DNA of 33,705 bases, taken from a virus. Location of the stretch: positions 1 through 33,705 of IMG/VR virus record IMGVR_UViG_3300032288_004250; one strand, given 5' to 3'. A model generated the notes under the pieces. That model had not been told where the DNA came from, made no database searches, and saw only the letters and a program-made list of their open reading frames with translations. A program made the translations under genes and the position numbers. This document shows, one piece after another, positions 379-23,639 of the stretch; position 1 is the stretch's first letter; every line of letters starts with the position of its first letter.

Positions 379-588
379 TCAAAACTCGTCAGTCGCGGTG
401 CCGTCGCGTTCGTGCTCCCAAGTCGCAAAAGCAGACATCGGATTGCGAATTGGCGCAGATTTCGCGTTTGCGGGCGATTTGGCGGCCTCTTGGCGTCGCA
501 TGATTGCTAACACTCGCGCGAGCTTGCGGCCAATCTGGCGGCTTGTGGGGCCGGTTTGTTGGCAAATCGGGTAAGGAATGGCATTCAT
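379..588 (-). CDS. Small basic HTH-like protein
   Basis: This 69-residue protein starts in an ATGA overlap with the stop of the DnaB-type helicase, so it is probably translationally coupled to it. Residues 8-31 (ICQQTG..SRQIGRKLARVLAIM) have the spacing of a helix-turn-helix, and the middle is rich in Lys/Arg. The C-terminal end is acidic (WEHERDGTATDEF). I do not recognise the family. Its place after the helicase suggests a replication accessory or a small DNA-binding regulator, but that is context only. Longer reading frames on both strands here look like shadows because they lack the coupling. Confidence 0.5.
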   Translation of the reverse strand: MNAIPYPICQQTGPTSRQIGRKLARVLAIMRRQEAAKSPANAKSAPIRNPMSAFATWEHERDGTATDEF

Positions 589-1982
589 GGTGTCGGTTCC
601 TCGGTTTCGCGGATGACCTCAAAGCGGAAATTGTTCCCTCGCAGTTCCATCATGACATAGCGGTATCGCTCGCCGTCGCGCAGCTTCTTGAAGAAAATCT
701 TCCGCACCCATGACGGCTTTTCGTCCTCGTCCTGCTCGCCACGCTGCCAAGCTGGTTTCTTGCCCTGTTGCTTGACCTTTTGAATCTGAATCAGATTGTC
801 GGCGTCCTGCTCGATTGCCATGCTTTCCCGCACCTCGCCATCTTTGTTTTGCTGGCTGGGCATGATGATGTGCGCTCCCGTCGTCTTGGCGCACTGCTTG
901 GCGGTCGCGGTGATGTGTGCAACCTCGCGCTCCCGATTCTTCTTGTCTGTTGCCGCCGTTTTGCACAATTGAATATAGTCGATCATGGCAACGAGCCTCT
1001 TGCTGGCAGGCAACTTGCGGGCGCGGCGCGTGATGTCTCGGCAAATCTGCTCGATGGTCTTGCCCGCCACGTCGATAATGTGCATGTCCCACTCGCTGAC
1101 CTTGCGGGCATGCGCAGCCAAAGAGCCTTGTTCCCCTCTGGTCAAAAGTCCCATCTTGAGGTTGCGGGCGTCAATACGCCCCTGCGAGCACAAAATGCGC
1201 CGCGCCTCGGTCTTGGGCATCATCTCATAGGTGTAATCAACGCACTGGTGCCCTTCCTTGGCGACCTCTTCGAGAATTTGGCGACACAGCGAGGACTTGC
1301 CATCGCTGGACTCTGCGGCCACGACCGTAAGGCATCCAGGCTCAAGCCCGCCCATTATGTCATCAACCGCCTCGATGCCGGTCGAGACGCCAGCAAACTT
1401 CCTGCCGGATGACGCCTGCCCCTCGCAATCTTCCAATACCTGCATGACGAGTTCACGGATCGGCGTCGAGGGCAATTCGGCGCTTTCCTCCATGGACGAA
1501 ACTTCGCGAGCGTCTTGGATTCGCCGTGCCGCATCGTCGAGCACAACCGTTACGTCATCGTCGGTCTGCTCCTTGCCGTGCTCGAAGGCTTGAGCGATAT
1601 TCAGCGCAGAGGCCCGGATGACTTCGCGCAGCGTGAACTTCTCCATCACGATCTTGCGATAAAATGGGAAGTGCGCCGAGATAGGCGTAAAACCCCAAAG
1701 GTCGCTAATCGCCACGGCTCCGCCTACTTTGTCGAGTGCCCCTTGCTCGCGCAGGAAATGAGTCAGCGTCACGGGGTCGAAGGGTTGCCCCTTGGCCGCA
1801 AGCGTTTGCATTGCCTCGTAAATGGCCCGCGTGCCTTCGTGGTAGATTGTGGCAGGCGCAGGACATTCGTTCAGCAGTTCGGGCCGCTGCATGAGGCACG
1901 AGATAACGCCCTTCTCGGCCTCGTCTGAGCAAGGCAGCGCGCGGTTCAGGGAGGCTAGAAGCTCTTCGGTCGTGAGGGTCAT
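585..1982 (-). CDS. DnaB-type replicative DNA helicase
   Basis: The 465-residue product is the replication fork helicase. Residues 1-130 match the DnaB N-terminal helical domain (SDEAEKGVISCLMQRPELL, then FDPVTLTHFLREQG). The RecA-like C-terminal half follows, with a Walker A-type loop near residue 225-232 (AESSDGKSS, replacing the commoner RPxxGKT) and a Walker B strand near 331 (VAMIDYIQL). A later PSQQNKDGEVRES stretch with an ADNLI segment fits the DnaB arginine-finger region. Length matches DnaB (about 450-470). It starts 4 bases inside the end of the replication initiator gene (1979-1982, ATGA), so initiator and helicase are made as a pair. The last residues are acidic. Family assignment is firm; the identity of its loader is not. 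Confidence 0.93.
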   Translation of the reverse strand: MTLTTEELLASLNRALPCSDEAEKGVISCLMQRPELLNECPAPATIYHEGTRAIYEAMQTLAAKGQPFDPVTLTHFLREQGALDKVGGAVAISDLWGFTPISAHFPFYRKIVMEKFTLREVIRASALNIAQAFEHGKEQTDDDVTVVLDDAARRIQDAREVSSMEESAELPSTPIRELVMQVLEDCEGQASSGRKFAGVSTGIEAVDDIMGGLEPGCLTVVAAESSDGKSSLCRQILEEVAKEGHQCVDYTYEMMPKTEARRILCSQGRIDARNLKMGLLTRGEQGSLAAHARKVSEWDMHIIDVAGKTIEQICRDITRRARKLPASKRLVAMIDYIQLCKTAATDKKNREREVAHITATAKQCAKTTGAHIIMPSQQNKDGEVRESMAIEQDADNLIQIQKVKQQGKKPAWQRGEQDEDEKPSWVRKIFFKKLRDGERYRYVMMELRGNNFRFEVIRETEEPTP

Positions 1983-3013
1983 TTCGCAGACGGGTCAAAG
2001 TTTTTTGCGCGGTCGATTTCGCCGCTCCAGTTGTTCAGCAAAGTCAGGAGGTCGCGTCGCAGGTATTGGCACCCTGATTGCGTGTAGAACCAACGCACAG
2101 CCTTCCAATCGTCCGGCTCGATAGGCTTGGCGATCTTGGCCCATGCCTTCCGCTCTTTGTCGCTCCATGCTGTTGTGGGCCTGCGACCAAACCAAGACGC
2201 CACTTCTTTTTGCTCAGGGGTCAGGATTGGAACGGTTTGTTGAGCTTCCAACTCCAACGACGGCGGAGCCGGAGGTTTCCCGTTTGGGGATATAGGGGTA
2301 ATTGAAGATGAAGATGAAGATGAAGATGAAGCCCTTTCTTGAGCCTTTTCATCACCCTTATTTAAACCCATAAGGGTAAGCAGCTTTTCGAGGTTTTGGC
2401 CCTCAATTCTGAACCATTCACCCATGATGCAATTAGATTTGAACTCCTGATGCAGTCTAGCCTCATCCTTACCCATATCCTGCGACGGCATCACCCCGAT
2501 AAGGGTAAGCCCCTCACCCTTAAGGGTAGATTTGATCTTGTTGAAGCGATTGGTTACATTTTGCGCGATACCAATTTTAATGGCTCCATCTGATGAGCGT
2601 CGGATGGCATAGACAAAGCCGGGGGATTTATAATCACCCTTTAAAGCAGGGTTTCCGCCTTGGTGCCCATTCTCGCGGGCCTTTTTCCGCAAGGCCTCAT
2701 CTCTGACCATGCGGCTATTGTAAATCGCTCCATCTTCACGTTTTTTAGCCACCCCGTAAGTCAACAAGGTAGAAAGGGCGGATTGCAGCTTTTGGTTATC
2801 CAAACCGAGCAACCGGCAAAGGGCATCTTCCGGCATCGGCTTACCGTTCAGCAGCAAGACGCCGCGCTCGTCAGACTCATGTAGCAGGCAGATGATTTCC
2901 CACCAAATGCCGCGCGTCTCGAAGTCGAGCGATTGCACGCCGGGGTCTTTGCGCCAGTCAGCGGGGTAGAATTGAAATGCTGGCAGTCTGCCGCTGTTTT
3001 TGGCATCACTCAT
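1979..3013 (-). CDS. Replication initiator-like protein with embedded T5orf172/GIY-YIG-like domain
   Basis: With the ATG at 3013 the protein has 344 residues and begins MSDAKNSGRLPAFQFYPADWRKDPGV, the usual opening of DUF1376-like phage replication proteins; an in-frame ATG at 3064 adds 17 unlikely residues. Residues ~9-115 form the winged-helix-like N-domain. Residues ~131-203 (GFVYAIRR, IKIGIAQNVTNRF, ARLHQEF, GEWFRI) match the T5orf172/MUG113 GIY-YIG-like domain. A linker with nine consecutive serines (~228-236) leads to a C-terminal domain (~255-344) containing FGRRPTTAWSDKE and LRRDLLTLLNNWSGEIDRA. The inserted domain is visibly AT-richer than its flanks and carries repeated ACCCTTA motifs. 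Position in front of dnaB suggests it loads helicase or marks the origin, as lambda O does; this is inference. Confidence 0.8.
   Translation of the reverse strand: MSDAKNSGRLPAFQFYPADWRKDPGVQSLDFETRGIWWEIICLLHESDERGVLLLNGKPMPEDALCRLLGLDNQKLQSALSTLLTYGVAKKREDGAIYNSRMVRDEALRKKARENGHQGGNPALKGDYKSPGFVYAIRRSSDGAIKIGIAQNVTNRFNKIKSTLKGEGLTLIGVMPSQDMGKDEARLHQEFKSNCIMGEWFRIEGQNLEKLLTLMGLNKGDEKAQERASSSSSSSSSITPISPNGKPPAPPSLELEAQQTVPILTPEQKEVASWFGRRPTTAWSDKERKAWAKIAKPIEPDDWKAVRWFYTQSGCQYLRRDLLTLLNNWSGEIDRAKNFDPSAK
2292..2643. repeat. Cluster of ACCCTTA/TAAGGGT repeats inside the initiator gene
   Basis: Short repeats with core TAAGGGT occur in both orientations: an identical 12-mer ATAAGGGTAAGC at 2370-2381 and 2499-2510; a perfect palindrome ACCCTTAAGGGT at 2516-2527; CACCCTTAT at 2353-2361, forming an inverted repeat with 2370-2377; TTACCCAT near 2469-2476; TCACCCTTTA at 2634-2643; and a degenerate ATAGGGGTA at 2292-2300. 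Iterons inside an initiator gene are known from lambda-type origins, so this is a candidate replication origin or autoregulatory site. Part of the similarity could come from the coding sequence (LTLMG and LTLIG). Confidence 0.5.
2304..2331. repeat. Hexanucleotide microsatellite (GAAGAT)
   Basis: GAAGAT is repeated about 4.7 times in tandem. On the minus strand it encodes the nine-serine linker of the replication protein as alternating TCA and TCT codons. Copy-number change would lengthen or shorten the linker by two serines without shifting the frame. Confidence 0.9.
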
Positions 3014-3230
3014 GATCCGATTAAAAAAGGCCGCCCCATCGAGTTCACTGGAAAACCTGCGCATGAGAGCAGGATGCCCGAAGGCACGAACAAGATGGGG
3101 CGATGTAGTGGGTTCCTCATGTCTTACATGCCGTTTCCAGTCGGCAGGGTTTTATCAGTCAGTTTCTCGCTTATTACAACGTGGTATTTTGTGTTACCGT
3201 CGAATGACACTTGTGCATGTTGGCACGTTG

Positions 3231-3569
3231 TCAGAATGGAATGTCATCGTCCGCCATGCCGTCCGCAATCGGCGCTTCTGGATACTCGATAGTCCCAGGA
3301 GGCGAGCGGCGCGGTTGTGGCTGTTGATGAATGACGCGCCTTTGCGGCGCTTGCTGGCGCTGCTCTTGCCGGTCGTCTTCAAGCGGATAGAGCGACAAGT
3401 AGCCCGACCATTCAGGCGATACCGGCATGGCGTCGAGCTTGAGCGAGATTCGCCCTTGTTCGTCCGTGAACGCGACGCCGCATTGCAGGTAGCGTTTCTT
3501 TTCCTCGCCGGTCTGGCGGTCCTTGTATTTGCCTACGGTGGCAACGATTTTGTGGGTAGCTTGAGCCAT
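3231..3569 (-). CDS. SSB-like single-stranded DNA-binding protein
   Basis: This 112-residue protein has an N-terminal beta-rich part (residues 1-60: KIVATVGKYKDRQTGEEKKRYLQCGVAF) that fits an OB fold. A Gln/Pro/Arg-rich linker follows (about 67-95), and the protein ends in ADDDIPF. The acidic DDDIPF tip is the signature by which bacterial SSB recruits partner proteins. The OB part is shorter and more divergent than E. coli SSB (178 residues), so I call it SSB-like. It sits between rusA and the replication initiator. The start has no Shine-Dalgarno sequence but the A/C-rich ACAACAAGACC directly before ATG. About 217 bases separate it from the initiator start at 3013, with no supported gene inside. 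Confidence 0.75.
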   Translation of the reverse strand: MAQATHKIVATVGKYKDRQTGEEKKRYLQCGVAFTDEQGRISLKLDAMPVSPEWSGYLSLYPLEDDRQEQRQQAPQRRVIHQQPQPRRSPPGTIEYPEAPIADGMADDDIPF

Positions 3570-3589
3570 GGTCTTGTTGTGTGGTGTTG

Positions 3590-3604
3590 GGTGCTATTTG
3601 GTGG
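3590..3604. repeat. Copy of recurrent leader element CCACCAAATAGCACC
   Basis: On the minus strand the 15-mer CCACCAAATAGCACC lies about 20 bases before the SSB-like start codon. A copy differing at one position is at 6421-6435 before another small gene. Shorter versions precede the genes starting at 4353 (TTTGGTGG on the plus strand, 4368-4375) and 360 (TATTCGGTGG, 363-372). Its role is unknown; translation enhancement or a regulator site are both possible. Confidence 0.45.
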
Positions 3605-3606
3605 CA

Positions 3607-4053
3607 TCACGACGCAATGGACGTGACGGTAATTTGAACGCCAGAAGGCTCGCCGAGAGCGGTCCACCGTTTGAGAAGTTGGCCCGAGCAGGCTTGGCTA
3701 TCGTCGCGCCACATCTCGATTTTGGTCAAGGTGTCGAGCACGGCCTTGTCGAGGTTGTCGCGATCCGGCTTTTGCGTGTGCCAGACGGGCGCGTCTGCTT
3801 TGATTTGGCCCTTGCTGGTAAAGTGCGACTTCGGGCGCGGAAACACAAACTCGCAATCGACGCGAACCGGGCCGGTGAAGATGGGGCGGGCCGCATGTGG
3901 ACGCATTGCCGAGCGTGCCGCCAGATGAATAGACGCCTTGAAGTCGTCAGCGGTGCCAGGATCATAGACGCCAGCATGACGGCCACGCACGAAAGCACGA
4001 ACGCGAGGTTGTCCCTTCGGTATGCCGGGAGCGAAAAAGATAATGGGCGTCAT
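3607..4053 (-). CDS. rusA: RusA-type Holliday junction resolvase
   Basis: The 148-residue protein cuts four-way DNA junctions during phage recombination or debranches DNA before packaging. The N-terminus (IFFAPGIPKGQPRVRAF) is the RusA opening strand. The acidic cluster is KPDRDNLDKAVLD (D97, D99, D102) followed by WRDDSQ (D117, D118), matching the catalytic aspartates of RusA. Length fits the family (about 120-150). The start at 4053 forms an ATGA overlap with the 64-residue gene upstream, which rules out the longer in-frame start at 4170. It lies between lambda-exo/RecT-type genes and the SSB-like gene, so the block is a full recombination kit. Confidence 0.9.
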   Translation of the reverse strand: MTPIIFFAPGIPKGQPRVRAFVRGRHAGVYDPGTADDFKASIHLAARSAMRPHAARPIFTGPVRVDCEFVFPRPKSHFTSKGQIKADAPVWHTQKPDRDNLDKAVLDTLTKIEMWRDDSQACSGQLLKRWTALGEPSGVQITVTSIAS

Positions 4054-4244
4054 ACAAGTTTGATGGTAGCGACCGACGCTTGCTTGAGCTTGTCCCATCC
4101 GGCAGACACGCCAGAGACAGCGCGGATGCCAAGAGGCTCGTTCGGGTTTTCGTGCTCGCGCAGGTTCCAAGTCAGAACCTCCGCTTTGTGGCCGATGGCT
4201 TGGCCAAGCGTCGCGAGTTCGTTGATAAGTCGTTCAATCGTCAT
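4050..4244 (-). CDS. Hypothetical 64-residue protein
   Basis: This small protein (MTIERLINELATLGQAIGHK, ending SVATIKLV) is predicted mostly helical with a mildly amphipathic first half. It overlaps rusA by ATGA at its end, and the 39-residue membrane peptide gene overlaps its start by 11 bases. The start is preceded by ATCCC. No family is recognised. Tight coupling on both sides is the main reason to accept it. Confidence 0.65.
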   Translation of the reverse strand: MTIERLINELATLGQAIGHKAEVLTWNLREHENPNEPLGIRAVSGVSAGWDKLKQASVATIKLV

Positions 4245-4353
4245 GGGATTTAATCATGGTTGTTGCGACCCATGCAGCGGCGATGAAGAATGCAGCAGCA
4301 GCAAATGCTTCTGGCCATTCCATAGGAGATTGCGCAAGTAAAACGTAGTTCAT
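4234..4353 (-). CDS. 39-residue single-pass membrane peptide
   Basis: The peptide reads MNYVLLAQSPMEWPEAFAAA at the start and ends MIKSHDD. Residues ~13-34 form one clear membrane segment rich in Ala, Phe and Trp. It starts 24 bases after the exonuclease stop, behind CCACCAAACGCCACAAACTGCC, an A/C-rich leader without Shine-Dalgarno, and overlaps the next gene by 11 bases. It is one of several tiny membrane proteins in this genome (see 6253, 8411 and 11382). Function is unknown; a membrane-effector or superinfection role would be speculation. Confidence 0.55.
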   Translation of the reverse strand: MNYVLLAQSPMEWPEAFAAAAFFIAAAWVATTMIKSHDD

Positions 4354-4376
4354 GGCAGTTTGTGGCGTTTGGTGGT

Positions 4377-5018
4377 TCAGTCCTTCACTTGAAGTTTCGG
4401 CGTCATCTTCTCGCGATACGCTCCGTATTCGATGACAAAGCGTTCAATCGCGGCTTCCAGCTTTGCCGTGTAGTCGTCGCGCTCCACGACCAAGTGAAAA
4501 GGTTGCAGGCCGGGGAAGTAAGAGAAGAAATGCCAGCGATCTAGTCCCGTGACCGCCATGGAGCCGTGAACCTGCGCCTTGTATTCGTCCGGTAAAACAC
4601 CGTCCTCGATATACTCGGCATGCGTGAACGGCGACGGACATTTGATTTCGAGGCCTGCCACATATTCGCCGGACTCGTCCTTTATGAGCGAGTCAGGCGA
4701 GCAGCCGACAACGTGCTTCCACTGGTCAGCGGTCACAAAGGCGACCTGTTCGGTAGTAAGGCCCGTATGCGCCTCGAAGGCCTTGCGCGCTTCCGGCTCC
4801 ATCTCGGTCCCGCGATCGGTCCAAAACGTTCCGAGGAACTTAGCATAGTCGGGCGTGAAGCACTCCACCAACAGGTCGCGCATGTAGGCGCTGGCTTGTT
4901 TGCTGTACTCACCCTTCGCGGGCGTGATGATCTTCTTGAAGTTGCTCGCAGAGACACGGCCACGTTTTAAAGCAAACCATTCTTCGGAGCCTTGGAGAAA
5001 GCCTTGATGGATTTTCAT
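4377..5018 (-). CDS. YqaJ/lambda-exo family 5'-3' exonuclease
   Basis: This 213-residue PD-(D/E)xK nuclease resects double-strand ends for RecT. Family landmarks are in order: GSEEWFALKRGRVSAS (residues 10-25), GTEMEPEARKAFE (70-82, with E72/E74), GCSPDSLI (D109), LEIKCPSP (E124, K126) and the helix YKAQVHGSM (Q149), as in lambda exonuclease and YqaJ. The start at 5018 makes an ATGA overlap with the recT stop and lies behind a G-rich stretch, so it is preferred to the ATG at 5045. Exonuclease and RecT are coupled, as expected for a two-component annealing system. Confidence 0.92.
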   Translation of the reverse strand: MKIHQGFLQGSEEWFALKRGRVSASNFKKIITPAKGEYSKQASAYMRDLLVECFTPDYAKFLGTFWTDRGTEMEPEARKAFEAHTGLTTEQVAFVTADQWKHVVGCSPDSLIKDESGEYVAGLEIKCPSPFTHAEYIEDGVLPDEYKAQVHGSMAVTGLDRWHFFSYFPGLQPFHLVVERDDYTAKLEAAIERFVIEYGAYREKMTPKLQVKD

Positions 5019-6001
5019 ACAAAAGCCCCCCTTTCCTTGTCCCATTTCACGCCGAGCACCTTGGCCCGCGCCTGAATGGCTTTTTTCACAATCTCCTGTT
5101 TCGCGCCCGTCAAAGCCGCGTTGGCTTGCTCGACGTAGGAGCCGAGGTTTTCGGCGTCAGAATCGGCCACAGCTTCGAGCAGGTCGGTTGCCAGCATGTC
5201 CTCTTGCGTTGGCTCCGCGACTTCGTGGACGACTTCCGTTTCCGCCTCGATGGTCGGAGCCTCGCCAGGAGGTTGGGCAAAGGGATCAAGGGGCGCGGAT
5301 CGTGCGGGCGAGACTTGGCGCGCAGATGTGTCGTGTTCGACCTCGTCGCCGTCCTTCTCGACAGCATCGCGAAACTCGGCAGACATGGGGAGCCACTTCG
5401 CGAGGCGACGAAAGGCGGTCTTTTTCGCCATCTCATTATAGTCCGTAACCCACGGCCCGGAGCCGCCAGACTTTGAGCGGCGACGGATGGCGTCGATTTC
5501 TTCCTTGTTGAGCACCGCCACGAATACCGGCCCCTCCTTCGTGACTGCCATCGCATAAGCGGCATACATGGCACCACGCGGTTGCTTCCAGTCGATGACA
5601 TGCCGGGTAATCTCGCCCAGGTTGTATTCAAAGACATCGTTCTCGCACACAATGTCAGCGTGCAGCTTGGCAATAATGCCGGAACGCATGGCAAGTTCAG
5701 CAAGGCCTTTCCAGTCAAGGATCAACGTGCATTGATTGCCGTAGGGAATCAGGTGCGCGCGCCGTCCGTCCGGCTCGATGCCGAAAGCCGACAGGTCGAG
5801 CAGGCAGCGGAAAAGGCTTTCCTGCGTGCAGCTTGCCAGCTTCGGCGTTCGCGTCAGGGCCGTAATGGCAACCCGGCAGAATCGTTCAGGCGTCAGATGT
5901 TTAGGAAGCGCGGCGGCGAATTGCTCGCGCATTTTCTCGCCCGAAAGGATGCCTTTCAGGGTTGCGAGTTGGCTTGGTGCAGTGGCGAGTTGGTCACTCA
6001 T
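5015..6001 (-). CDS. recT: RecT-family single-strand annealing protein
   Basis: The 328-residue protein anneals complementary single strands exposed by its partner exonuclease. Residues ~25-230 carry RecT features: PERFCRVAITALTRTPKLASCTQESLF, DLSAFGIEPDGRRAHLIPYG, CTLILDWKGLAELA, and the PWVTDYNEMAKKTAFRRLAKWLP segment near 190-210. The C-terminal third is acidic and low in complexity, then turns basic. The start at 6001 follows the upstream stop by three bases (TAACCCATG), with no Shine-Dalgarno. Length is typical (RecT about 270-330). Confidence 0.93.
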   Translation of the reverse strand: MSDQLATAPSQLATLKGILSGEKMREQFAAALPKHLTPERFCRVAITALTRTPKLASCTQESLFRCLLDLSAFGIEPDGRRAHLIPYGNQCTLILDWKGLAELAMRSGIIAKLHADIVCENDVFEYNLGEITRHVIDWKQPRGAMYAAYAMAVTKEGPVFVAVLNKEEIDAIRRRSKSGGSGPWVTDYNEMAKKTAFRRLAKWLPMSAEFRDAVEKDGDEVEHDTSARQVSPARSAPLDPFAQPPGEAPTIEAETEVVHEVAEPTQEDMLATDLLEAVADSDAENLGSYVEQANAALTGAKQEIVKKAIQARAKVLGVKWDKERGAFV

Positions 6002-6004
6002 GGG

Positions 6005-6256
6005 TTACTTGTTGGGATTCTTGTTGGGATTCTTGCGTTCGAGAAGCTGGCGAAGGCTGCGGTAGCATTTCAGGCGGTCGCAAAGCTCGACCTGCTTTTC
6101 CGCAATGAGCCAATCGACGGCGGCAGTCAGGTCATAGCCGTTCGCTTGGAGTTGAGTCACAACCGGCGCGAAGGGCGCCCATGATGAGCGGCTTGGCTTT
6201 TGCGGCGGCAGCGCCTTTGCGGCCTTGGCGAGGAGTTGGGTGATAGGCGTTTTCAT
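6005..6256 (-). CDS. Hypothetical 83-residue protein with C-terminal KNPN repeats
   Basis: The body (APFAPVVTQLQANGYDLT, then VDWLIAEKQVELCDRLK) looks like a small helical bundle. The end is ERKNPNKNPNK, encoded by a perfect tandem 12-base duplication. It starts in an ATGA overlap with the stop of the 51-residue gene and ends three bases before recT. I do not recognise the family. The short repeat may be a recent slippage event that adds a basic tail. Confidence 0.6.
   Translation of the reverse strand: MKTPITQLLAKAAKALPPQKPSRSSWAPFAPVVTQLQANGYDLTAAVDWLIAEKQVELCDRLKCYRSLRQLLERKNPNKNPNK
6009..6032. repeat. Tandem 12-bp duplication
   Basis: TTGTTGGGATTC occurs twice head-to-tail (6009-6020 and 6021-6032). 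It encodes the repeated KNPN at the C-terminus of the 83-residue protein. Confidence 0.9.
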
Positions 6257-6408
6257 GCGTGGAAAATCAGATAAGCAGCAGCGCCGACGCAGCCGATGCA
6301 GAAGCCGAGCGCGTAGAAGGTCATGGAAGCGCGGCGTTCATGCACCTGCGCAATCGTGCGCGGGCGAAGGTCGAGCATGTGAGGGCTGGGGCGAAGGCGG
6401 ATGTTCAT
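6253..6408 (-). CDS. 51-residue membrane peptide
   Basis: The product begins MNIRLRPSPHMLDLRPRT and has one hydrophobic segment at the C-terminus (residues ~30-50, FYALGFCIGCVGAAAYLIF) behind a strongly basic N-terminal half. This topology suggests a tail-anchored protein with its basic domain in the cytoplasm. The start at 6408 lies 12 bases after a copy of the CCACCGAATAGCACC element and directly behind ACACC; the stop overlaps the next gene by ATGA. A longer upstream reading in the same frame only reads antisense-like coding of the 121-codon gene. Function is unknown. Confidence 0.55.
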   Translation of the reverse strand: MNIRLRPSPHMLDLRPRTIAQVHERRASMTFYALGFCIGCVGAAAYLIFHA

Positions 6409-6420
6409 GGTGTGGCTTTT

Positions 6421-6435
6421 GGTGCTATTCGGTGG
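6421..6435. repeat. Second copy of leader element CCACCGAATAGCACC
   Basis: It differs at one position from the copy at 3590-3604. It overlaps the stop codon of the gene ending at 6425 and lies 12 bases before the start at 6408. Confidence 0.45.
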
Positions 6436-6751
6436 TGTCCGGCGTTTCGAGAGTGCGGATTGCTTCGAGGACGACGGAAAGGGGCGTGCGTTGGTTGAAC
6501 CGGGCCTCCCATTCATGCTTTTCGTCCATGACGTAGAGGAACGGTTCCGTAGAGGGCCACTCTCCCGACCGGATGCAGACATGCGAGTCACCAAGTTGGA
6601 GGTAAATCGGATGCCCGTCCGCGTTGTCGGGGTGCTTTGGGTCGATCTTCATTCCCTTCTCGGCGAGGATCGTATCGACTCCATGCCACCACTCGCGGCG
6701 ACGTTGGAGGCGGGTTTCGATGTAGAGCGGAATCAGCTTCGCGTCACTCAT
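6425..6751 (-). CDS. Hypothetical 108-residue protein
   Basis: With the ATG at 6751 the protein begins MSDAKLIPLYIETRLQRRREW. This start has a good ribosome binding site (AAAGGAG seven bases ahead), one of the few strong ones here, and is preferred to the ATG at 6790. The sequence contains HGVDTILAEKG and DSHVCIRSGEWPS, and ends LETPDTTE; it looks like a soluble alpha/beta protein. It overlaps the stop of the upstream gene by eight bases. No family is recognised. Confidence 0.7.
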   Translation of the reverse strand: MSDAKLIPLYIETRLQRRREWWHGVDTILAEKGMKIDPKHPDNADGHPIYLQLGDSHVCIRSGEWPSTEPFLYVMDEKHEWEARFNQRTPLSVVLEAIRTLETPDTTE

Positions 6752-7046
6752 GGCTTGCTCCTTTCCCCATGGCGTTCCTAAGCAGCCCAATTGACGTTGA
6801 ACCGGCTTGTTGCAAAGGTATCGCGTTCATGATGACGACGGGCTGCAATAAGTCTTTGCGCATCACAATTTGCCGATCGAGCGCGCTATTCAGCAGATTA
6901 AAGACGTGCTCAATTGCCGCGACATCGCATCCCATAATTGCCACCTCTCCAACGCCGGGGATTTTATAACCGCAGCTAATCAAAGAGATTGCGCGGCCAA
7001 TAACTTCGCTGGGCATTGCCATTGCTTGTTTGGGAGTATCACTCAT
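6744..7046 (-). CDS. Hypothetical 100-residue protein
   Basis: The protein (MSDTPKQAMAMPSEVIGRA, then GYKIPGVGEVAIMGCDVAA and FNLLNSALDRQ) is soluble and without motifs that I recognise. It starts in an ATGA overlap with the RHH-like gene upstream and has AAAGGG about nine bases before the start. It is the second of a run of small early genes (7365 to 6425) that read as one transcription unit with the tandem palindromes at its head. Confidence 0.65.
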   Translation of the reverse strand: MSDTPKQAMAMPSEVIGRAISLISCGYKIPGVGEVAIMGCDVAAIEHVFNLLNSALDRQIVMRKDLLQPVVIMNAIPLQQAGSTSIGLLRNAMGKGASHE

Positions 7047-7207
7047 GACTTGCGGCCCTTTCTAGCCTTGGGCGTCACAGCAGCGGAGGCCGCGTGCATC
7101 CAGTTCAACATCGAGAGCGTTTCAGCTTCGGGCGTGCGCTTGCTGCGAGATGCAGCAGCTTTGACCCAGCGCGCCAGCTCCGGGTTGAGTTCGAGGGTCA
7201 GCTTCAT
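7043..7207 (-). CDS. Small RHH-like DNA-binding protein (54 residues)
   Basis: The start at 7207 has a clear ribosome binding site (AAAGGAG eight bases upstream) and begins MKLTLELNPELARWVKAAAS, with a strand followed by two helices (SRSKRTPEAETLSMLNWMH) as in ribbon-helix-helix or Arc-type repressors. The C-terminus is basic (KARKGRKS). The longer reading from 7324 overlaps the preceding RHH gene and is rejected. It overlaps the upstream RHH gene by four bases, so the two small proteins are probably made together and may act as a pair. Confidence 0.65.
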   Translation of the reverse strand: MKLTLELNPELARWVKAAASRSKRTPEAETLSMLNWMHAASAAVTPKARKGRKS

Positions 7208-7365
7208 TTCCGTGCTCCTTTCTTGGTCTTGGTTGGTTTGGCGGCGGGACGGTTCAGGCCAAGGAGAAACAAGGCTTGATTCCCGATAGTGCGGCACTCG
7301 GCCTTTGCCTGTTCGGCAAGCCATGCGTGCGTTTCGTCGTCGGCGTTGATGATGATTTGCTTCAT
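7204..7365 (-). CDS. Small RHH-like repressor next to tandem palindromes
   Basis: The 53-residue protein MKQIIINADDETHAWLAEQA... has the ribbon-helix-helix layout: a beta strand (KQIIINA), helix A (ETHAWLAEQAKA), a turn and helix B (IGNQALFLLGLN), then a basic tail (KPTKTKKGARK). RHH proteins bind DNA as dimers on short palindromes, and two 15-bp palindromic boxes abut its start codon, which suggests autoregulation. An in-frame ATG at 7425 would make the boxes coding (GVTTP twice, nine codons apart); that start has no ribosome site, so 7365 is preferred. Confidence 0.65.
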   Translation of the reverse strand: MKQIIINADDETHAWLAEQAKAECRTIGNQALFLLGLNRPAAKPTKTKKGARK

Positions 7366-20957: not shown

Positions 20958-23639
20958 TTATCTTCCCTCCACTTCATGAATCAAAATGTAAGCCAGCAAG
21001 TTAAAAGGCACGGGATCGGCGCTGCGGAATTGCAGCTCGATGGAGTCCTCCCAATCTGCCGGAACGTGGCTAGAAATGCGCGTCGTCCTGACCGTGAGCG
21101 CCGGTTCGTCGGCCTGCTCGCGCTCGTAGGGGGACGAGTAGTCTAGCGCCGTCCAGTCGCCGCCCGTGCGGAACTCGCCCCCAATGGAGTTGTAGAGGCA
21201 GGCAATGAGCCGGTTCGGACGCCAGCGCCGCCCCTGCCCGGTGCCGTCATCCAGCACGACTTCTAGGCGCATCGGTCGAAGCGTGGCCTCGTAGGCAAGG
21301 CCCACAATGGCCGACGTGGCAGCGGTCGAGAGCGTGACGGCTCCCGAGGAAACCGTTTTCGTCTCGATCCGGGCACCATCCGCCCAAATCTTGACTTGCT
21401 TCCCTTCGAGGTGCGAAAGCCCCGTGATGGACGTTCCCGAGGGCGTGACCTTGAGGCCCGAGTCCACATAGAAGAAATCACTCGCGGTGTCGAAATCGAA
21501 ATCTTGCGCGGTCGGATAGAACCTTTCGACGTTCCGAACCGTCGCGCCGTTGATGGTCCGGCGCACCACAAACCAAACTTCATCCCGTCCGTTGTCGCCG
21601 TAGATGGTCGCGACGCTCTCGAAATAGCCATCCGTGACGTGGCGATGCCATGCCGTGACGTTCTGGCGTCGGTCGTAGGTGAAGCCGCAAAGTTCCCCGT
21701 CGCCATTGACGGCCCAAAGGACCGAATCGGGCATGGCCGCAAAGTCCATATCTACAAGGCCCGAAGCGCCCAGGTGTTCGGCAAATTGCAGCACGTCAGA
21801 CCCGCTCCAAGCGTCGCGGCTGAAATCGTAATTGAACTCATGGAGGCGGCGCGCACTTCGAGGGCACCAGAACAAGGCGTCGTTGACCATCTGCGGCGCA
21901 AGCGGCGCGGAGCCGTTCCGGGTCGTCAGGCGGGCGCGCATGTTGTCGGCAGTCAGGACGGAATCAGATTCGCCGCTGTTGATGATCCATTCCTCCCCGG
22001 TCGTGCCGATGACGAGATTCCGGCCAAGCGAGGCCATCCACTCGATTTGATTTGTCTCGACGCTTGAAAGCGTGATGTCGATACCGTCGTCATCTTCCGG
22101 GCCGGTGAAGAAGTTATAGAAGTCATCGACGCGGCTAGACCATGCCCGCGAGGCGTCGCCCGACACACCAGCGAACCAAAGGCGCGCCTCATGGAAGGCC
22201 ACGGCGCGCGGGTAGCTCGCCCCGAAGGCACCGCGATACCAGTTTCGGTTATCGGTCGTCAGAATCTCGCAGGGCGCAAAAGTGATGTCTGGCAGCACAA
22301 AGGAGGCCGTGACCTCCGTGCTGGAAACAAACGAGTCCACGCGAACCAGCGCCGTCACAACGCCGGTTGTGGCCTCGATCAAAAAGCCTTGGTCGCGCGC
22401 CGTCGAGGTGATGCCAGGCTCCCACCGAATGCGGTAATAGCCGCCCGTCGAGGGGCCGTTGTAGGTCGAGGCAATGTTGCCGTCTGCCGGGTTCTTGAAG
22501 CCCCAATGGCGAACGCGGTCCCAAGTGCTGCGGTCAGGGCTGAACTCAAGGTAAAGCTCTCCCTTGACGCCACCGTTCAGATAGCCGGAATAATTGGTCG
22601 TCGTGATGGTCGAGCGAATGAGCGCGTCGCCCGCAATGAACATCGGCTCCGTGACGTGCGTAACTCCCGCCGTGTGGTTCGTGGACAGGAAAAGCGAACG
22701 CTTTGAGCACCCTACGTCGATGCGGAAATACGTCCCTTCATCGGCAGCAGAAAAGGTCGCGGCGCTGGCAAAGAGGCGAAGGTTGGAGTCACCGACCGCC
22801 AGCCAGTAGGTAGCCCAAGACCCGGAACCACCCGGGCGCGGATTGGCATTGTAGCCTGAACCTGCAATTAGGGCCGCCGTCGAGAGAATGCAGACATATC
22901 GCACGCCCGCCACGTCCACCATATCGGCAGTGTCGTGGTCGTCGTCGCGCGCCCACGGGCCGCGAGGTTTGACTGCTTTCCAGCGCGAGGCCGCTAGATC
23001 GGTCGCGAATGTGCCGGACGTGTGGCCCGTTGCGCACATATAGAGCAAGCCGCTTTGAAGCCGGACCTGCCCGACCGTGTAAACCGTCCCGGTCGCCCAC
23101 GCGGTAACGCCCGGCTGAATCCTAATCGTCGTCGTCGTATCATTGATGTCCGACATGGGCGGAAAGTCGAACGGGAACTCTTCGAGCGTCCAGCTTGTTT
23201 CCGAATTGCGCGAAAGACGGCGCGGCGCATGCGACGGATGCACAAGGAACATCACGTCGTTGATCTGGCAGAACTGCACCGCTTGAAGCTGCGCCGCCGT
23301 GTAGGGGGATGCGATTTCCACAGGCGTTCCGCTGGTTATGCGCGTCATGGCGGAGCCGCCTTTCCAGAAGCGCATATAGGTGTGCCCCATCTCGATAACG
23401 TAGTTAGTCGAGGTCGAACGCTTGAAGGGAATCAGGCGCGTTGCCGTCGAGGAGGTCTTGACGGCCCCGCCATATTGCAGGCCCGGACGCTTGAACGCTC
23501 CGCCGTAGGGCCGCACGACACAGTTTTGCAGCTCGCGGCAACCGTCACGGTAAATGGCTGCGTCTGGCCGGGAGTCGAGCAGTTGCGAAAGCTCGCCGCC
23601 GTTGAAGGAAGCCTGAAAGGTTCGGGTTGCGATGCTCAT
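20958..23639 (-). CDS. Tail tubular protein B (nozzle)
   Basis: The 893-residue protein forms the distal tail nozzle of a short-tailed phage. The opening MSIATRTFQASFNGGELS, then YRDGCRELQNCVVRPYGGAFKRPGLQY and TRLIPFKRSTSTNYVIEMG, is the family signature, followed by FCQINDVMFLVHPSHAPRRL. Beta-rich insertions (about 170-460) make it long compared with T7 gp12 (794). Later segments (VETNQIEWMASLGRNLVIGT, EEWIINSG) match the conserved propeller part. It overlaps tail tubular protein A by four bases (ATGA). Confidence 0.9.
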   Translation of the reverse strand: MSIATRTFQASFNGGELSQLLDSRPDAAIYRDGCRELQNCVVRPYGGAFKRPGLQYGGAVKTSSTATRLIPFKRSTSTNYVIEMGHTYMRFWKGGSAMTRITSGTPVEIASPYTAAQLQAVQFCQINDVMFLVHPSHAPRRLSRNSETSWTLEEFPFDFPPMSDINDTTTTIRIQPGVTAWATGTVYTVGQVRLQSGLLYMCATGHTSGTFATDLAASRWKAVKPRGPWARDDDHDTADMVDVAGVRYVCILSTAALIAGSGYNANPRPGGSGSWATYWLAVGDSNLRLFASAATFSAADEGTYFRIDVGCSKRSLFLSTNHTAGVTHVTEPMFIAGDALIRSTITTTNYSGYLNGGVKGELYLEFSPDRSTWDRVRHWGFKNPADGNIASTYNGPSTGGYYRIRWEPGITSTARDQGFLIEATTGVVTALVRVDSFVSSTEVTASFVLPDITFAPCEILTTDNRNWYRGAFGASYPRAVAFHEARLWFAGVSGDASRAWSSRVDDFYNFFTGPEDDDGIDITLSSVETNQIEWMASLGRNLVIGTTGEEWIINSGESDSVLTADNMRARLTTRNGSAPLAPQMVNDALFWCPRSARRLHEFNYDFSRDAWSGSDVLQFAEHLGASGLVDMDFAAMPDSVLWAVNGDGELCGFTYDRRQNVTAWHRHVTDGYFESVATIYGDNGRDEVWFVVRRTINGATVRNVERFYPTAQDFDFDTASDFFYVDSGLKVTPSGTSITGLSHLEGKQVKIWADGARIETKTVSSGAVTLSTAATSAIVGLAYEATLRPMRLEVVLDDGTGQGRRWRPNRLIACLYNSIGGEFRTGGDWTALDYSSPYEREQADEPALTVRTTRISSHVPADWEDSIELQFRSADPVPFNLLAYILIHEVEGR

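Follow-up and report, generated by a model that had tools for sequence, protein, structure and literature searches.

Why should a phage replication initiator carry a nuclease-like domain in its middle? The question is raised by the virus record IMGVR_UViG_3300032288_004250, analyzed here over its whole length of 33,705 nucleotides (positions 1 to 33,705; the window), in which an initiator of 344 residues holds a GIY-YIG domain between its DNA-binding N-terminal domain (N-domain) and its C-terminal part. We find that this domain is an optional insertion in the initiator, at a fixed site, that it is conserved and mobile, and that its insertion point coincides with a palindrome in linker DNA that looks like an origin. 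Together these features suggest a selfish or weapon-like nuclease that moved into origins. The gene is divided as follows, where GIY-bearing and GIY-less denote initiators with and without the domain, L-numbers denote compared loci, and ORF stands for open reading frame.

1979..3013, minus strand: replication initiator, 344 residues; the ORF is open from 3064 (1979-3064), with an ATG at 3013.
2789..3013, minus strand: residues 1-75, first half of the winged-helix DNA-binding domain, from identity to GIY-less L012/L013 and a RepA-like fold.
2642..2788, minus strand: residues 76-124, second winged-helix half and next helix, ending GGNPAL, where identity to L012/L013 drops.
2369..2641, minus strand: inserted cassette, residues 125-215 (91 residues), missing from 65 of 79 family genes and defined by its position relative to GGNP.
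2408..2620, minus strand: GIY-YIG (MUG113/T5orf172) core, residues 132-202, GFVYAIRR...GEWFRI, from Pfam, alignments, the model and the I-TevI match.
2303..2329, minus strand: poly-serine linker and right-hand recombination junction, where DNA identity to L001 ends at 2326.
1982..2302, minus strand: C-terminal domain, residues 238-344, 98% identical to L001 and 66% identical over 77 residues to L014.

The original prediction, made from the sequence alone, had placed a T5orf172-type segment at 2400-2630, and the core lies inside that interval. The segment is indeed richer in AT than its flanks, with a GC content of 0.42-0.51 (slides over 2280-2639) against 0.54-0.63 (1500-2219) and 0.48-0.59 (2640-3059). 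Its predicted identity holds as well, since residues 132-212 contain matches above the cut-offs to both Pfam MUG113 (PF13455; 1.8e-10, 41.7 bits, cut-off 22.3) and T5orf172 (PF10544; 5e-7, 30.6 bits, cut-off 20). A model of the excised domain (predicted local distance difference test score, pLDDT, 94.2) finds its best solved-structure matches by VIA-align in I-TevI (1mk0, Z 6.0, 69 aligned, root-mean-square deviation [rmsd] 3.5; 1ln0, Z 5.8, 68 aligned, rmsd 2.6), with AtGRXS16, Slx1, UvrC and T4 EndoII lower down; the unrelated CheC (Z 5.1), at rank 4, is the sole non-GIY entry among the first nine rows. Foldseek matches the same model to predicted viral T5orf172 and GIY-YIG proteins, to about 1e-6. 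Because the Z scores are middling, CheC ranks fourth, and Foldseek against the Protein Data Bank gave no match at 0.001 for models of the whole protein and the excised domain, it is the Pfam match that carries the GIY-YIG identification. A sequence search of solved structures with one of the alignments gave chance-level matches only.

The active site is conserved. In 13 of 13 aligned GIY-bearing members, down to 33% identity, 16 columns are invariant, and in window numbering the invariant residues include Y135, K146-I-G148, R156, E184, H188 and E199-W-F201, among them the Tyr, Arg and Glu positions that the prediction had singled out for checking. The Tyr, Lys and Arg would fall on I-TevI residues 6, 17 and 27 if the structural alignment is continued from its 8-to-3 start without gaps, a gap-free run that is assumed and not displayed in the output; the catalytic Glu (E184) was assigned by motif. 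In the one close pair measured, L081 and L098, the ratio of nonsynonymous to synonymous rates (dN/dS) is 0.10 for the module and 0.08 for the N-domain, so the module is under purifying selection there.

To place the insertion within its family, relatives were gathered by an N-domain scan confirmed by tblastn, from which the best 80 of 206 viral relatives, ranked by their similarity to the window, were taken. A motif search flagged the GIY domain in five of those 80 (L019, L035, L081-L083), and scans with small GIY alignments added L093, L094, L096/L097, L098, L102, L103/L105, L104, L106 and L107. With L002-L004, the open-ended ORFs L067 and L085, and identical proteins from among 84 loci left out of the gene counts, the set comprises 79 genes: 14 GIY-bearing, 13 of them distinct (L082, whose N-domain and module are identical to those of L081, is counted in the 14 and not in the 13), and 65 distinct GIY-less. 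L001, which has no GGNP motif, was excluded from the junction-palindrome count (hence 64 of 65) and from the tree.

The domain is thus absent from 65 of the 79 initiator genes compared, a ratio that is not a population frequency because similarity to the window decided which relatives were taken. In each of the 14 GIY-bearing genes the insert stands directly after GG-[NS]-P-x-L and has, close to its beginning, a Y-x-x-[PS]-G-[FYH]-x-Y stretch, and this one junction is shared by 13 distinct initiators despite divergence to 29% whole-protein identity (among eight aligned members). Residues 1-75 of the window protein are 97-98% identical in amino acids to the GIY-less L012/L013. The predicted insertion into a replication initiator is therefore upheld, and a fixed ancestral domain, carried by all homologues, is rejected by the 65 genes without it. 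Two other candidates were also rejected: an intein, since the insert has 91 residues and the window protein has no Pfam intein match, and a group I intron, since the frame is continuous and an Rfam scan of 1500-3600 gave one chance-level match (E 0.29).

Among 50,697 phage and 72,556 plasmid records, none covers 80% of the window protein, and no phage record covers 80% of the L093 or L106 protein; blastn of window positions 600-5000 found no phage match, and a viral scan with the window GIY segment alone found no relative. No relative turned up either in two patterned scans covering 84,980 bacterial and archaeal genomes, which is weak evidence of absence because the scans relied on short conserved peptides. 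Odn-type proteins apart, none of the matches listed from the open-access literature described an initiator with an internal GIY-YIG domain.

Has the module moved? It is missing from the same site in close relatives, and its history differs from that of the host gene, two marks of homing. On an N-domain tree of 78 rows and 106 columns, few columns for so many rows, the GIY label changes eight times, and at least five of these changes are forced by well-supported branches. L019 and L035 are 67% identical in the GIY domain, yet 46% and 39% in the two N-domain halves, whereas L096 and L107, a likely vertical pair, show the reverse (58% in the GIY domain against 73% and 73%). Similarity between the DNA of L019 and that of L035 stops at TTTACCCTTAAG, before the poly-serine codons, and beyond that point L035 continues with CAAAA like the GIY-less L028, TAAGCAAAA. 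Full co-inheritance of binding specificity and module was considered and is only partly true, the second N-domain half of L035 being closest to that of the GIY-less L037. Between L081 and L079, DNA likeness is lost over nt 150-647 and returns at 648, inside the CTTAAG of L081. This optional, mobile, fixed-site pattern agrees with the earlier suggestion of a homing-type domain incorporated into the initiator.

The window gene itself shows two breaks. Nucleotide identity to L012/L013 is 0.78-0.89 over residues 1-75, 0.42-0.62 over residues 76-119 and 0.73 over residues 120-124, while L012 and L013 stay alike over the matching residues (0.82-0.96), which places a recombination break near residue 75. 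At the other end, the GIY-less sister phages L001/L002 share 97.9% DNA identity with the window over 368-2326, ending inside the poly-serine codons, and within 1979-2786 L003/L004 match the window at 2301-2331 only. Because of both breaks, we regard the gene as a mosaic of an N-terminal half, a block with the second winged-helix half, nuclease and repeats, and a C-terminal part; the window and L081 genes look like block swaps. In comparable fashion, N-domain and origin have been exchanged against a constant C-domain in the plasmid initiator pPR9 (PMC5703833) and in PLE RepA (PMC8263062).

The N-domain of L001 differs wholly from that of the window: it is a true Pfam DUF1376 domain (3.6e-9) and has its own repeat, AACCACC, in five copies (codon shuffle 1/300). 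For the window, the label DUF1376-like of the original prediction is loose: the N-domain there has no Pfam DUF1376 match up to E=1 and instead matches PHROG 13246, "replisome organizer" (1e-8). Set side by side, the window and L001/L002 point to sister phages that have swapped origin specificity, with a poly-serine microsatellite as the place of exchange.

What lies at the DNA level where the module entered? In the window, the linker-coding region contains three features of note.

2293..2528, no strand assigned: clustered half-sites TAAGGGTA, putative iterons of an in-gene origin, comprising seven of the nine window matches that have one mismatch or none.
2515..2528, no strand assigned: palindrome CACCCTTAAGGGTA, centered on TTAA, inside GIY-coding DNA, from the sequence.
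2366..2377, no strand assigned: ACCCATAAGGGT, an inverted repeat with one center change (coding strand CTTATG, +36 nt after EWF), from ACCCTTA at gene nt 636.

The total of nine TAAGGGTA matches in the window is only mildly above chance (shuffle mean 4.2; four shuffles reach 9), and it is their clustering that stands out. The cluster ranks top of 668 slides, scoring 13.3 against 5.4 for the best elsewhere with 8-mers and 12.1 against 6.8 with 10-mers, and 4 of 300 synonymous-codon shuffles of the gene reach the observed 7-mer count. Across the family, 22 of 64 GIY-less genes have a TTAA-centered palindrome where the GIY domain would enter, right after GGNP and with arms like TTTG-S / S-CAAA; its position is +7 nt in 21 of these genes and +4 in the other. 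Such a palindrome is found at the junction in 0 of 14 GIY-bearing genes. Of the latter, 12 of 13 distinct genes have CTTAAG, which in 11 cases lies +39 to +60 nt beyond the EWF codons, against three occurrences in the remaining 117 kb of those loci, and the window's ACCCATAAGGGT lies near this position. In L102, where CTTAAG is absent, GGACCCTAAAGGGTCC takes its place in that region. The longer CCTTAAGG occurs 13 times, in 10 of the 13 GIY-bearing genes (codon-shuffle mean 0.8, maximum 4), and counted by gene it is present in 11 of 14 GIY-bearing versus 4 of 65 GIY-less genes.

Pooled palindromes are in excess in both groups, 12 in the 13 GIY-bearing genes (codon-shuffle mean 0.37, maximum 2) and 34 in the 65 GIY-less genes (mean 3.9, maximum 12). 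A perfect-arm inverted-repeat test was passed by 8 of 13 GIY-bearing genes (null mean 2.6, maximum 7), the window failing, and by 34 of 64 GIY-less genes (null mean 12.2, maximum 19). The expectation of repeats in every GIY-bearing gene was not borne out by 7-mers (3 of 14) and is weakly supported by the inverted-repeat test. Origin boxes lie within the rep gene of RepA_N plasmids (PMC5703833). The linker DNA of the phage genes compared here looks like an origin, and its repeats may function as one. In lambda, the origin repeats are inside gene O. Seven GIY-less loci (L040, L054-L058, L070) have inverted repeats of 24-26 bp, such as AAGGGGGGTTTTGAAACCCCCCTT, shortly after a GGNP-type junction, which are likely origin palindromes of another specificity class.

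The reading we favor, which we consider plausible if somewhat short of probable, is that of a mobile, active, origin-directed nuclease kept in frame in the initiator and attacking related origins that lack the module. The winged-helix domain would bind an origin inside its own gene, in the linker-coding DNA before the C-terminal part, and that helicase-recruiting part would hand over to the adjacent DnaB helicase. The 91-residue module would have entered the linker in frame, at the point where a third of the examined GIY-less relatives keep a TTAA palindrome, and would remain in the mature protein. Carried to related origins by the DNA-binding part, it would cut or nick those whose palindrome is uninterrupted, and repair or loss of the cut rival would favor the module-bearing allele, whether as homing-like spread or as exclusion of rivals. 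In the carrier's own origin, that palindrome would have given way to another whose arms differ and which in most cases lies downstream of the module. We infer origin function of the repeats, catalysis, target and biological benefit, and prefer this reading because the module is conserved, mobile and located at a palindrome that the initiator should bind, and because a precedent exists in Odn of Vibrio phage ICP1, in which T5orf172 is joined to RepA_N and which is reported to cut PLE origins (Barth et al. 2021; PMC8263062); further odn genes have been described (PMC10448857). Odn, too, unites a T5orf172-type GIY-YIG nuclease with an initiator DNA-binding domain and targets a repeat-bearing, satellite origin. 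However, it is described as a stand-alone anti-satellite nuclease, whereas the window domain sits inside an apparently working initiator of the phage's own, between the DNA-binding and C-terminal parts and at a putative origin palindrome; Odn has a Pfam RepA_N domain, whereas the window has the RepA-like fold only. A more specific version, which we regard as rather doubtful, would make the module an unspliced in-frame homing endonuclease in an essential initiator, homing via the initiator's DNA-binding domain into the unsplit-palindrome origins of related phages, with a replacement half-palindrome keeping its own origin functional but immune.

Several observations weigh against this reading. 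The second Tyr-bearing half-motif, YIG, reads KIG in 13 of 13 members. Of the GIY-less genes, 42 of 64 lack the TTAA-centered palindrome at the junction (in some of these, arms CAAGG/CCTTG or long GGGGGG/CCCCCC repeats occur nearby), and CTTAAG is also present in 16 of 65. The perfect palindrome of the window lies within the GIY-coding part, and a hybrid palindrome is seen in L035 only. Exact 7-mers are enriched over synonymous shuffles (p<=0.05) in 3 of 14 GIY-bearing genes and, among the GIY-less, in 18 of 65; of 69 loci scanned, 38 had their top repeat cluster in the initiator gene. Inheritance also accounts for part of the module's distribution, because shuffled labels need 13.0 changes on average on the tree and 0 of 500 shuffles need as few as the observed number. 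No phage pair differing solely by the insert was met among the compared loci, where no dedicated search was made for one. Finally, recruiting a nuclease to its own origin could do harm.

These points leave room for three other explanations. The module could be a degenerate GIY-YIG fold without catalysis that adds origin contacts or spaces the two ends of the initiator, as the uniform loss of the YIG Tyr and the half-sites scattered through the window's GIY-coding DNA would allow; we think this unlikely, since Tyr, Arg and Glu are invariant in all 13 members, the same Tyr-to-Lys change is found at K73 of the restriction enzyme R.Hpy188I (PMC2630997), and the activity of one T5orf172 nuclease is reported to depend on its Glu (PMC10448857). 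The remaining two are less probable still. A neutral passenger, landed by illegitimate recombination of a phage-borne GIY domain in a disordered, origin-encoding linker that tolerates inserts, would suit the high variability of that linker (GAEHG-type repeats, differing lengths) and the finding that the origin-encoded central domain of pSK41 can be deleted in frame (PMC5703833), but it accords poorly with purifying selection in the L081/L098 pair, with a single junction in 13 distinct proteins and with at least five forced label changes.

Quite improbable as well is a self-origin nickase, in which the initiator would have gained a catalytic step, nicking its own palindrome and so aiding melting or a switch of replication mode. 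The conserved active site and the retention of CTTAAG in the carriers' own genes (12 of 13, 11 of them at the position given above) speak for it, but relatives 97-98% identical over residues 1-75 do without the module, and repeated gain and loss would be odd for a core replication step. Theta-type O/DnaB systems, moreover, are not known to need a nick. A module that nicks or marks the origin had been one of the two original suggestions, and the tie to the origin is now stronger than could be seen at that stage, because the likely origin repeats overlap the inserted segment; the arrangement of repeats and insert is explained no less well by an attack on GIY-less origins than by self-nicking.

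Three neighbors of GIY-bearing initiators deserve mention beside the nuclease. Directly after the initiator, L081 has a Mom-type DNA modification gene (3928-4605; 4e-37) and L094 an N6/N4 DNA methylase gene (2811-3839; 1.5e-44), for which a role in origin self-protection is possible. In L104, the helicase gene beside the initiator (4732-7320) contains an intein with a LAGLIDADG homing endonuclease, so that two different homing-type elements adjoin in one replication module.

That the host protein is an initiator is supported by its replication context, given below after its fold and profile matches. An AlphaFold2 model of the whole protein, built from an eight-row alignment, is confident for the winged helix and the GIY domain and poor for the C-terminal half. 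With the N-domain model, VIA-align places plasmid RepA initiators on top (4pql, Z 8.3, 80 aligned, rmsd 2.5; 4pt7, Z 8.2, 79 aligned, rmsd 2.6; 5kbj, Z 7.9, 89 aligned, rmsd 4.4), a resemblance of fold and not proof of kinship because unrelated winged helices follow close behind at Z 7; Pfam RepA_N (PF06970) has no match in the window protein up to E=1. The O-like PHROG 678 is matched in three of eight GIY-bearing members and also in L012 and L106, and the C-terminal part of L106 resembles phage protein O entries. In the window, the 3' end of the initiator ORF overlaps the start of the helicase ORF at 1979-1982:

585..1982, minus strand: DnaB-like replicative helicase (Pfam DnaB_C 5.2e-36, DnaB 1.1e-17; PHROG 19, 1.6e-58).

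Since the nearby genes identified by Pfam are this DnaB helicase, RusA, YqaJ and RecT, the region is a phage module for replication and recombination. Genes of the DnaB or IstB/DnaC type are present in 8 of 13 GIY-bearing loci (the window, L019, L081, L094, L096, L098, L103 and L104) and a DEAD/ResIII helicase gene in L035; in L093, L102, L106 and L107 no helicase or loader was detected, with one next ORF Pfam-scanned in 10 loci and tblastn alone applied to L102. We take the protein to be an O-like/RepA-like phage replication initiator. Elsewhere in the window, the protein encoded at 20958-23639 weakly matches a phage nozzle protein (1e-5) and the carbohydrate-binding module CBM_5_12 (2.1e-5), both below the curated cut-off.

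How does this gene compare with other known systems? In Myxococcus phage Mx8, p19 (L007; NC_003085), an annotated replication initiation protein and full-length member of PHROG 8130, likewise has a MUG113/T5orf172 domain after its N-domain (PF13455, 3.8e-13) and is followed by a gene "similar to DnaC". However, its N-domain matches PHROG 16167 and 12556, and the GGNP junction is absent. PHROG 12556 is also matched by two of eight GIY-bearing members, the matching part of the protein not being displayed. From these comparisons we infer an independent fusion, and because in p19 a domain of this kind follows a different N-domain, fusions of initiators with GIY-YIG domains probably arose more than once. 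The N-domain of p19 also matches the first 106 positions of PHROG 5718, named HNH endonuclease (2.3e-13), a hint that HNH nucleases, too, are fused to N-domains of initiators.

RepA_N initiators such as those of pSK41 and the chimeric pPR9 resemble the window protein in their winged-helix N-domain, in mid-gene origin boxes, which are putative in the window, and in the joint exchange of N-domain and origin, but they belong to Gram-positive plasmids, and the passages describing them mention no nuclease domain (PMC5703833). Lambda O-like initiators (PHROG 678/345) resemble the C-terminal part of several GIY-bearing members and share a helicase or loader neighbor, whereas the window protein itself had no O-like match in the PHROG profile search. 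Lambda O is not known to contain a nuclease. I-TevI-type homing endonucleases share the GIY-YIG fold, insertion at a recognition-like site and a scattered distribution, but here there is neither intron nor intein, and the completed host protein retains the domain.

Most known homing nucleases reside in introns or inteins or between genes. New here is linker DNA resembling an origin, with a palindrome at the insertion point, and a nuclease inside a working initiator at an origin palindrome would, if the favored reading is true, be another solution, in which one protein would couple initiation with attack on rival origins. For this large and little-studied family of phage initiators, the analysis also provides a sequence-based map of probable in-gene origins, with their TTAA palindromes and clade-specific arms, so that origin function and the nuclease target can both be tested directly.

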